A stretch of DNA of 32,418 bases, taken from contig CALXSJ010000031.1 of the NCBI GenBank assembly GCA_944391115.1, positions 1 through 32,418 on the forward strand, given 5' to 3'. This document shows, in pieces, positions 12,134 to 31,006 of the stretch (positions are counted from its first letter, which is position 1; the number at the start of each line of letters is the position of its first letter). The position numbers and the translations under genes are program-made. This DNA is from an uncultured Victivallales bacterium. GTDB lineage: Bacteria > Verrucomicrobiota > Lentisphaeria > Victivallales > UBA1829. The notes under the pieces were generated by a model. The model had not been told where the DNA came from, searched no databases, and saw only the letters and a program-made list of their open reading frames with translations.

Positions 12134-13609
12134 CTATCGCCGGATAATGTCATGCAGGCGTTCCCGCGCACGGGCAAGACACTGTTCCGGGGGGATCGTC
12201 CCGCACAGACAGGGGCGGAGCTCCTCGCCGAAAACTCCCAGCGCCGCGCGGATGTTTTTAAAATCAAACTGCGGGTGCGCTCCGGCGATGGTCGAAACAA
12301 TCGTGTTTTTCTGAGAGGCCGGCAGTTCCGCAAGGCGGCAGGAAGCATCTCTCCTTGCCGGGAAATCATACTCCAGAGAGAGCGGATACTGCGCCCGCTT
12401 CTGATAGAGAAACTTCAGCCAGCGCCATGCCGCATGCAGCTCCTCCTCGTTCCGGACGCCGCCCCGGAAAATGCCGACGGAAAAATTCCCAAGTATGGAA
12501 ACGCTCCGCATGCCGGATTCCGGAGCAGGAATCGGATAATAGCGGAACGGCGAATCCCGGAACGGCATGCCGTTGAGATGGCAGGGATGCCGGGTCGTTG
12601 CAAAGACCATCCCGATCCGGCCGAACAGAAAGAGATCGTCCTCTTCCGGCGGAGCGGGCCGGCTCGTCCGCCGCCAGCGGGCAAGCGCCTCAAGCCCGCG
12701 GCGGCAGGACTTGCTTTCCAGCACGGCAAGAAAACTCCGCGCGGACGAGTCGATCCCCGCCGCATCGGCCCAGAGATACGGGAGATATCCGGTCACATTG
12801 TGCCAGCTGAACGGCAGCGGCATGCTCGTTCCGTAATTTCCGGGATGGCGTTCGGCATAAGCGCCCAGACGTTCACACCATTCGTTCACAATTTCAAAAG
12901 TCAAGGTTTCCGGAAGATTGCGGATTCCCGCGCGCGCCAGGAATTCCGTATTCACAATGCAGTGCCGCGCATTGGTTTTCAGTGCGATGGCGTGAATATG
13001 CGGTTCGTCGTTCATGTCCATGGTCGGAAACGCCGCGCCGGGAACCAGCTGCGACACCAGTTCTTCAAACCCGGGAAGATGCTCCAGCGGATGCAGCGCA
13101 TTGATCGCGGAATAGTCCGAGTGAAAGAAAAACTCCCCGGTCGACGGCGGAGTCCCAGCCCCGATCAGCCCGAGATAAGGATCCTCGCTTCCCACATACC
13201 CTTCCGGATTGAGCATCGAAACCTCCACCTTGATGTCCGGATTCTCCATGCGGAACAGCGCGGCCAGCGTCTTGACAATGAAGAGAGTCTGCGGCGGACA
13301 GATCAGGATGCCGTGCCGGATCGTAATCCGCGCGGGGCCGAAAAAGGAGCCGAACATCTCGCCCGGTTCCTCGTTGTCCACGGAGGAGCAGCTGATGTAG
13401 GAGCCGCTCCCGCGGACCTTGCGGATGATTCCCTGCGCCTCCAGATCCCGGAGAGCGCCGACCACAGTGATCCGGGAAACCCCGAACGCGTCGGCAAGCT
13501 CGCGTTCGGAAGGCAGACGCTGGTCCTTTTTCAGTTCTCCGTTGTTGATCCGGTTGATGATGTCGTTCCGGATGCGGATGTATTGCGGCGTAAAGGTTTT
13601 TCCTGTCAT
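12134..13609 (-). CDS. GntR-type regulator fused to an ABC-type solute-binding (SBP family 1-like) domain
   Basis: The N-terminal 75 or so residues are a GntR winged helix: PQYIRIRNDIINRINNGEL, then LPSERELADAFGVSR, then ALRDLEAQGIIRKVRGSGSYI. The remaining 410 residues resemble an extracellular solute-binding protein: FIVKTLAALFRMENPDIKVEV at the start, GEFFFHSDYSAINALHPLE, then IVNTEFLARAGIRNLPETL and a terminal helix-rich part. There is no signal peptide, lipobox or membrane helix, so the binding fold acts in the cytoplasm, presumably as the effector domain that senses a sugar. GntR regulators more often carry FCD, UTRA, MocR or LacI-like domains. The start at 13609 has GGAGAG 6 bases upstream. 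It is divergent from the isomerase operon that it probably controls. Confidence 0.85.
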   Translation of the reverse strand: MTGKTFTPQYIRIRNDIINRINNGELKKDQRLPSERELADAFGVSRITVVGALRDLEAQGIIRKVRGSGSYISCSSVDNEEPGEMFGSFFGPARITIRHGILICPPQTLFIVKTLAALFRMENPDIKVEVSMLNPEGYVGSEDPYLGLIGAGTPPSTGEFFFHSDYSAINALHPLEHLPGFEELVSQLVPGAAFPTMDMNDEPHIHAIALKTNARHCIVNTEFLARAGIRNLPETLTFEIVNEWCERLGAYAERHPGNYGTSMPLPFSWHNVTGYLPYLWADAAGIDSSARSFLAVLESKSCRRGLEALARWRRTSRPAPPEEDDLFLFGRIGMVFATTRHPCHLNGMPFRDSPFRYYPIPAPESGMRSVSILGNFSVGIFRGGVRNEEELHAAWRWLKFLYQKRAQYPLSLEYDFPARRDASCRLAELPASQKNTIVSTIAGAHPQFDFKNIRAALGVFGEELRPCLCGTIPPEQCLARARERLHDIIRR

Positions 13610-29207: not shown

Positions 29208-30479
29208 ATGAACTCGCCGGTAAAACCGAAAAATAAAATGTTCGCCGCAGGCAAATGGATGCCGAAAGACCGGGAGACATTGACACAATGGCTGCTGAAA
29301 ATCATGGAAAAGGCGGAAAAGGACACCGGACCGCTGAAACCGGTGCTTGAGGATTTCAGGAATTTCATTGAAACCGATGCGGACGCCTATATGTTCTTTT
29401 CTCAGATGTTCAGCGAGGTCCCGGCGGATAAAACACAGTCTCCGACAGGACTGCCGCAGGTGCGCGATTATCAGCACATGCTCCGGCTTTTCAACGTCAT
29501 TCTGACTCATGCGCCGGATTTCGCCGAAAACGGCCTGGTCGGATTTCCGTTCAACGCGATTCTGGACTGGTCCATGGCGACGACCGACGGCTGGGCGGCA
29601 TTCATCGACCGGAAGGTCAACGTCCACATCAAGGCGATCCTCAACGAGTGGGGCACCTTCCTCCGCTCACCGGACAGCGCCTATGTGCTCAATGACGACC
29701 CGCGCCACGGCTGGTTCGGCGAAGATGCGAAAAAAGCCATGCCGGGTTTTGCCGAAGAGTTTGTCTGCGATCCGTCCAAACCGCATTACGGATTCAAATC
29801 CTGGGACGATTTCTTCATCCGGGAATTCCGGGAAGGCGTCCGCCCTGTCGTCGAACCGGAGAATGACGCGGTGATCGCCAATGCCTGTGAATCCGCTCCC
29901 TTCGCCATCGCACGGAATGTCAGACTTCTGGATCAGTTCTGGATCAAAGCGCAGCCGTATGCCCTGCGTTTCATGCTCAACAACGATCCGCTGGCTGAAA
30001 AATTTGTCGGAGGAACCGTCTATCAGGCCTTCCTGAGCGCCTTCAGCTATCACAGATGGCATGCGCCGGTTTCCGGACGCGTCGTGAAAACCGCTCTCAT
30101 TCCGGGAACCTACTATTCCGAAGCGCGCAGTGCGGGGTTCGATCCCTCCGCGCCGAACGACTCGCAGGGCTACCTTGCCGAGATCGCGACACGCGCAGTC
30201 ATCTATATTGAGGCGGACAATCCCGATATCGGTCTGATGTGCTTTATCGCCATCGGCATGGCGGAAGTCTCCACCTGTGAGATTTCAGTATTTCAGGGAC
30301 AGCATATTGAGAAAGGACAGGAAACGGGAATGTTCCATTTCGGAGGATCGACCTACTGTCTCGTCTTCGGCCCGCACGTCAATCTGGAATTCGATCTTCA
30401 CGGCCAGGAACCAGGTCTGGAAAGTTTCAATATCAACATCAATTCACGCCTTGCGACAGTCGGTCCGCGCAGGAAATAA
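29208..30479 (+). CDS. phosphatidylserine decarboxylase-family protein (soluble, PsiD-like architecture)
   Basis: The family makes a pyruvoyl cofactor by self-cleavage at a Gly-Ser bond. The 423-residue protein has an N-terminal helical domain (about 15-175) of the kind found in PSD-like amino acid decarboxylases, including fungal tryptophan decarboxylase PsiD. The catalytic domain follows: SWDDFFIREFREGVRPV near 198-213, YHRWHAPVSG with His282 and His285, and the self-cleavage motif FGGST with Ser381, leaving a 43-residue alpha chain. The PADG-like motif of true phosphatidylserine decarboxylases is replaced by NACES (225-229). No membrane helix is seen. A decarboxylase for a free amino acid is therefore at least as likely as a phospholipid enzyme. 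AGGAGGGGG precedes the ATG. Confidence 0.85.
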   Translation: MNSPVKPKNKMFAAGKWMPKDRETLTQWLLKIMEKAEKDTGPLKPVLEDFRNFIETDADAYMFFSQMFSEVPADKTQSPTGLPQVRDYQHMLRLFNVILTHAPDFAENGLVGFPFNAILDWSMATTDGWAAFIDRKVNVHIKAILNEWGTFLRSPDSAYVLNDDPRHGWFGEDAKKAMPGFAEEFVCDPSKPHYGFKSWDDFFIREFREGVRPVVEPENDAVIANACESAPFAIARNVRLLDQFWIKAQPYALRFMLNNDPLAEKFVGGTVYQAFLSAFSYHRWHAPVSGRVVKTALIPGTYYSEARSAGFDPSAPNDSQGYLAEIATRAVIYIEADNPDIGLMCFIAIGMAEVSTCEISVFQGQHIEKGQETGMFHFGGSTYCLVFGPHVNLEFDLHGQEPGLESFNININSRLATVGPRRK

Positions 30480-30489
30480 GCGCACCTCC

Positions 30490-30566
30490 GGGATGCGGAA
30501 AAGCCGGCTGAAAAAGAAACAAGCTGCCGATCCTGCATGATTGCGGGACCGGACATTCCGCATCCC
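30490..30566. repeat. perfect 11-bp inverted repeat in the gap after the decarboxylase gene
   Basis: GGGATGCGGAA (30490-30500) is exactly complementary to TTCCGCATCCC (30556-30566), separated by 55 bases. It begins 11 bases after the decarboxylase stop and may act as an RNA structure or terminator-like element. The remaining stretch to 30810 (about 240 bases) contains no gene or motif that I can support; it becomes AT-rich around 30645-30705. Confidence 0.4.
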
Positions 30567-30810
30567 CGGCCCGGGGCTTCTTCTGCCGGACTCATGTCTG
30601 CATCATGCCGCCCTTGCCCAAGGGAACATTGCAAGAGCGGCACATCATTTTTCGCACTAATATTCTAACCATTTGCAAGTATTTCACATTACATATTTTC
30701 CGCATGACGAAAAGGCTGCCGGAAACCGCCCCGATCCAGCTCATTTGGCAGAGGACGCTCCGTTACGGTGTCCGGAGTAAAAGAAGTCATGGAACCGCAG
30801 GAAAAAGAGT

Positions 30811-30867
30811 TGGCAACCCCGTCAGGATTCGAACCTGAACTGAGTGGACCAAAACCACTTGTGCTAC
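30811..30867 (-). tRNA. 3' fragment of tRNA-Gln (UUG anticodon), probable attachment site of an integrated element
   Basis: Read on the minus strand, bases 30867-30811 give the end of a D arm, an anticodon arm AGTGG-TTTTGGT-CCACT (anticodon UUG, glutamine), a 4-base variable loop, a T arm TCAGG-TTCGAAT-CCTGA and the acceptor 3' strand CGGGGTT-G-CCA. The 5' acceptor strand (expected AACCCCG) and a normal D loop with GG are missing upstream; the sequence there does not pair. The tRNA homology therefore stops near 30867, on the side facing the integrase gene. This is what an element inserted into the 3' part of a tRNA gene leaves at its distal end; the restored full tRNA should lie beyond the right edge. 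Confidence 0.75.
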
Positions 30868-30976
30868 TCTAAGCGATAACACTCGTTTTTAACACCTGAA
30901 CAGAAAAATGCGGGACGAATGTCTGACGCTTGAATCCTTTCAGAGCCCTGAACACCAAAGATCGGAAAAGTTCAGG
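30834..30976. repeat. repeated heptamer CCTGAAC, candidate integrase arm-type sites
   Basis: CCTGAAC occurs at 30834-30840 (within the tRNA T arm), 30895-30901 and 30947-30953, and inverted as GTTCAGG at 30970-30976. The last two face each other with a 16-base loop. Four copies of a 7-mer in 143 bases next to an att-like tRNA fragment and an integrase gene suggest binding sites for the recombinase. Confidence 0.45.
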
Positions 30977-31000
30977 AAAAAAAAACAATGAAAGGATTCA
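30931..31000. repeat. perfect 12-bp inverted repeat whose right arm contains the integrase ribosome binding site
   Basis: TGAATCCTTTCA (30931-30942) is exactly complementary to TGAAAGGATTCA (30989-31000), with 46 bases between. The Shine-Dalgarno-like AAAGGA (30991-30996) lies in the right arm, 10 bases before the integrase ATG. Folding would mask it. The loop contains the smaller CCTGAAC/GTTCAGG stem. Confidence 0.6.
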
Positions 31001-31006
31001 TGCAAG

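Follow-up and report, generated by a model that had tools for sequence, protein, structure and literature searches.

A tRNA-Gln(UUG) 3' fragment beside a tyrosine integrase gene as the probable end of a tRNA-targeted island in an uncultured Victivallales bacterium

The window analysed here is the entire contig C31 (32,418 bp) of a draft Victivallales genome of 3.66 Mb, which is in 44 contigs and is 95.4% complete and 0.23% contaminated. Towards its right-hand end lie a phosphatidylserine decarboxylase gene (psd), a piece of a tRNA-Gln gene and a gene encoding a tyrosine integrase (Table 1). The psd gene is the chromosomal left flank, outside the element discussed below, and its protein is 94–95% identical to the versions in two congeners (G001 and G003). 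Between psd and the tRNA piece, positions 30480-30800 had no match in 60 relatives apart from a short repeat. The integrase gene starts 139 bp from the tRNA fragment and the contig ends 11 bp past the integrase stop codon. The integrase ORF is uninterrupted and, by motif position, has each of the family's six catalytic residues (R260, K285, H374, R377, H400 and Y409). Viral contigs yielded no relatives of the integrase and, when scanned with 50 contiguous bases from the tRNA fragment, no matches to that either.

Table 1. Features at the right-hand end of the window (contig C31)
Feature	Position	Strand	Evidence
Phosphatidylserine decarboxylase gene (psd)	29208..30479	+	PF12588/PF02666
3' part of tRNA-Gln(UUG) and 10 bp past the CCA, attR-type end	30801..30867	-	100% identity to C37:12349-12415
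Complement of the anticodon loop of the tRNA-Gln fragment	30848-30854		
Integrase-side att arm/int leader	30868..31006	.	Homologous int-side region in G003 C226
Tyrosine integrase gene, 466 aa	31007..32407	+	PF00589 E=6.4e-19; phrog_1 integrase E=2.6e-47

Read on the minus strand, positions 30867-30811 are TAGCACAAGTGGTTTTGGTCCACTCAGTTCAGGTTCGAATCCTGACGGGGTTGCCA (plus the first bases) and correspond, with 100% identity, to nucleotides 18-74 of the tRNA-Gln(TTG) of this genome. The exact repeat is longer, at 67 bp, since it includes 10 bp beyond the CCA; its partner is found on a second contig, C37 (same-genome search, E=1.7e-28), a match far beyond chance. The window copy has neither the 5' acceptor strand nor most of the D-arm, and the complete cloverleaf of a functional tRNA gene is not seen. 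ARAGORN called no tRNA in the window and the fragment scored 21.8 bits with the Rfam tRNA model, below the gathering score of 29, indicating that the fragment is not a functional tRNA gene. An earlier note on this DNA had described the piece as running from the anticodon arm to the CCA end only, with homology stopping on the side facing the integrase gene, and had named a complete functional tRNA at this place as evidence against its reading. None can be called, the 3' portion and the direction are as the note described, and the one correction is that homology starts in the D-arm, slightly 5' of the anticodon arm.

Alone at 30726-30761 on the plus strand, 40 bp to the left of the tRNA fragment, lies a degenerate version (30/36) of the CRISPR repeat CCGCCTCAATCTAGCTCATTTGGCAGAGGATGCGAC. 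Arrays of this repeat are present on C42 of G001 and on C33 of this genome, the latter contig also encoding Cas12b (type V-B) and a Cas4–Cas1 fusion, and the copy by the fragment could be left over from an array or could be a crRNA-like RNA. The C33 type V-B array (L077 5598-6589) contains a repeated block of four spacers, an apparent internal duplication. With a CRISPR repeat so close by, the tRNA piece might be a spacer, or else a decayed tRNA gene, unrelated in either case to integration, and a spacer containing a piece of tRNA is known (PMC9897764). However, 67 bp is double the length of the 34-36 nt spacers of the type V-B array, no repeats flank the piece and, at 100% identity, there is no decay; we give this explanation almost no credence.

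Tyrosine integrases recombine an attP site carrying a piece of a tRNA with the tRNA gene itself, such that the gene is restored at one end of the element and the fragment displaced to the other (PMC4383910; PMC8371274, the latter an archaeal integrase review). Among the islands catalogued by Islander, 3' fragments occur in 3760 of 3919 and anticodon-centred sites in 2083 (PMC4383910). The second copy that was foreseen in the earlier note, attached to an intact tRNA-Gln, does exist: the gene lies at C37:12332-12405 in the same genome, joined to the partner repeat. It is not visible inside the window because the window is the whole of contig C31. As in the Islander islands (PMC4383910), an intact tDNA and a displaced 3' fragment would thus flank an element encoding a tyrosine integrase, but here the two ends are on separate contigs of a draft genome and the island is not closed. 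Islander looks for a 3' tDNA fragment that is an exact match to an intact tDNA in that genome, for a tyrosine integrase gene inside the island, and for the two tDNA copies to be on the same replicon and in the same orientation, 2-200 kb apart. The first two features are present here (67 bp at 100% identity to the C37 tRNA-Gln; the PF00589 match and catalytic motif residues), whilst the third is seen in four relatives carrying the same integrase family (G015, G045, G104 and G070).

Across 137 genomes of the order, integrase homologues (defined by E below 1e-90) are encoded by 12, this genome included. In 10 of the 11 others an antisense 3' tRNA fragment is found just upstream of the integrase gene, its 3' end pointing away from the integrase. 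The fragments derive from tRNA-Arg (G001, G002), tRNA-Met (G015, G021, G051), tRNA-Thr (G045, G104), tRNA-Lys (G070, G122) and tRNA-Asn (G060), with isotypes lacking an intact partner being assigned by reading the anticodon loop. Complete elements of about 3.7-8.9 kb, running from fragment to integrase to an intact tRNA that shares a 45-53 bp repeat with the fragment, are present on four contigs: at tRNA-Met in G015 (46 bp repeat, 3.7 kb), at tRNA-Thr in G045 (53 bp, 5.0 kb) and G104 (45 bp, 8.9 kb) and at tRNA-Lys in G070 (52 bp at 98%, 8.3 kb). In each the 3' end of the intact tRNA is directed into the element. The polarity that the earlier note had proposed for the window (fragment, integrase, element, intact tRNA) can therefore be seen in full in all four: the fragment lies next to the integrase gene, which is transcribed away from it, and the intact tRNA is at the far end. 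The relatives differ from the window in their use of Met, Thr or Lys tRNAs and in having repeats of 45-53 bp that stop in or near the anticodon loop, whereas the window's 67-bp repeat reaches into the D-arm. When empty sites for these elements were sought in the genera to which G045, G070 and G104 belong, no clean uninterrupted site was present among the matches followed. That one integrase family uses different tRNAs with a single fixed polarity means that island ends should be easy to find in Victivallales assemblies.

The 3.7 kb tRNA-Met element of G015 (L106) carries the integrase gene together with one for a reverse transcriptase (RVT_1, 305 aa), which is probably truncated. Element-like DNA is also found outside its tRNA-Met fragment, which suggests stacked insertions in this genome. 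In the tRNA-Thr element of G104 (L142 6690-7163, 8557-11373) a gene of 938 aa resembles phage tape-measure genes and a short ORF resembles the terminase small subunit, both judged by eye only. The G001 element resembles phage- or plasmid-like satellites with integrase, excisionase and D5 primase, encoding an integrase, an HTH_17 excisionase-like protein, PriCT_2 and D5_N/DUF5906; the window, unlike these, stops right after the integrase gene. A search of the present genome for the D5 primase module that follows the integrase in G001 gave a 27% match at best.

The exception among the 11 genomes is G003, which has no tRNA fragment upstream of the integrase gene. There (L054 9840-9900) the integrase gene lies directly against a protein-coding gene in which GATTATGAG occurs, the letters of the tRNA-Met anticodon loop beside the G015 fragment, a possible case of insertion at a secondary site. 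Since the G003 integrase adjoins a protein-coding gene in this way, insertions outside tRNA genes may occur in the family. This bears on the window, where the element could have inserted at a secondary, non-tRNA site by psd, the tRNA piece being derived from attP and the C37 tRNA-Gln being empty or holding another element. Not only is the G003 integrase a close relative, but no relative, including the two congeners that have psd, shows this gene joined directly to tRNA-Gln; in G001 and G003 psd has other downstream neighbours. Against this, the identity between the two copies spans the tRNA 3' end and 10 bp downstream, whereas a crossover in the anticodon loop at such a site would leave a partial repeat, and the four complete relatives show the usual pairing of tRNA and fragment. 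We consider insertion at a secondary site improbable.

A fault in binning or assembly would also place psd beside the fragment, either through misjoining of psd DNA to the integrase end across the 67-bp repeat or through mixing of contigs from two strains. An exact repeat of this length can mislead a short-read assembler, and an assembly in 44 contigs, with a contig end 11 bp after the integrase gene, invites the suspicion. The figures for completeness and contamination (95% and 0.23%) speak against it, however, as does the presence of the same type of junction between fragment and integrase in relatives from other assemblies. Because that junction recurs, only the join between psd and the fragment could be wrong, and we judge even this to be very improbable.

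If the element of this genome has the polarity of its relatives, the sequence following tRNA-Gln on C37 is expected to belong to it. This DNA is common to the three congeners, and thus to all four species of the genus, and on the basis of that conservation we at first held it to be native. Two observations reversed this view. First, it can be aligned to the DNA immediately beside the tRNA-Met fragment in G015, a member of another genus (z=13.7 against shuffles), whereas the left flank of the window cannot (z=1.2). Second, G003 and C37 are 97% identical over the 150 bp directly after tRNA-Gln but 64% identical over the 60 bp before it. In addition, exact copies of the 11-mer GGGACGAATGT are found on the integrase side, both in the att arm of the window (30912-30922) and in G003 C226, as well as beyond the 3' end of tRNA-Gln in C37, G001 and G003; by our own arithmetic about 0.1 chance exact hits are expected in the sequence scanned, with the orthologous sites not being independent of one another. 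A phage-like replication gene lies past C37:13.1 kb (phrog_947 match, E=8e-15). On these sequence comparisons, what follows tRNA-Gln on C37 resembles the far end of the element.

No second tRNA-Gln(UUG) fragment was found in the three congeners that share this DNA, and the C37 side could thus be an old or stacked remnant, or native. The C37 and window sides might then belong to different elements that used tRNA-Gln at different times, as a relic of an old insertion or as stacked islands. The sharing of the downstream DNA by all four species is in keeping with such a history, as is the element-like DNA beyond the G015 fragment, but an uninterrupted integrase gene with intact catalytic motifs and a perfect 67-bp pair fit a recent insertion. 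We think a layered origin unlikely, though it deserves some weight, and mechanistically it would still be tRNA-targeted integration.

Taken together, the evidence supports the earlier reading of an integrated-element end, and we consider it likely that the fragment represents the 3' end of tRNA-Gln(UUG), displaced to one end of an integrative island whose two ends are carried by C31 and C37. Counting against this are the location of the two ends on different contigs, the other downstream neighbours of psd in G001 and G003, the near absence of matches to 30480-30800, the sharing of the C37-side DNA by congeners that have no second tRNA-Gln(UUG) fragment, and the lack of a D5 primase match above 27%. 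The integrase would have recombined the attP of the element, bearing a copy of the 3' part of the tRNA, with the tRNA gene acting as attB. The crossover was probably in the anticodon loop, since the shared repeats of the relatives end in or near it. The incoming copy would have restored the intact tRNA on C37, and the original 3' part would have been displaced to its place beside the integrase gene, with the chromosome (psd) on its left. The element would then start at about 30868, continue to the right beyond the contig and reach its far end on C37 from position 12406 onwards. We infer that C31 and C37 hold the ends of one element, which may still be mobile. The finding supplies an exact island boundary for an order that has been little studied and is mostly uncultured. 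The island would be of the ordinary tRNA-targeted kind, and only the wide tRNA range of the integrase family and the possible cargo described next exceed the routine.

A type II CRISPR-Cas locus encoding Cas9 (1122 aa), Cas1 and Cas2, with 29 repeats, lies 5.6 kb beyond the intact tRNA-Gln, at about C37:18017-24640 (L012 10017-16640), and is absent from the three congeners. The locus is possibly cargo of the element, in which case it would represent a route of CRISPR-Cas gain for these bacteria. We propose, as a tentative idea about which we have more doubt than confidence, that the Victivallales integrase family of this island switches its target between the anticodon loops of six or more tRNA isotypes and that at tRNA-Gln here it has a complete type II CRISPR-Cas9 system as mobile cargo. 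When CRISPR spacers were compared with the loci examined, none of the matches listed lay in the integrase elements. One spacer of the type II locus agrees at 27/28 bases with a site within the G001 type V-B array.
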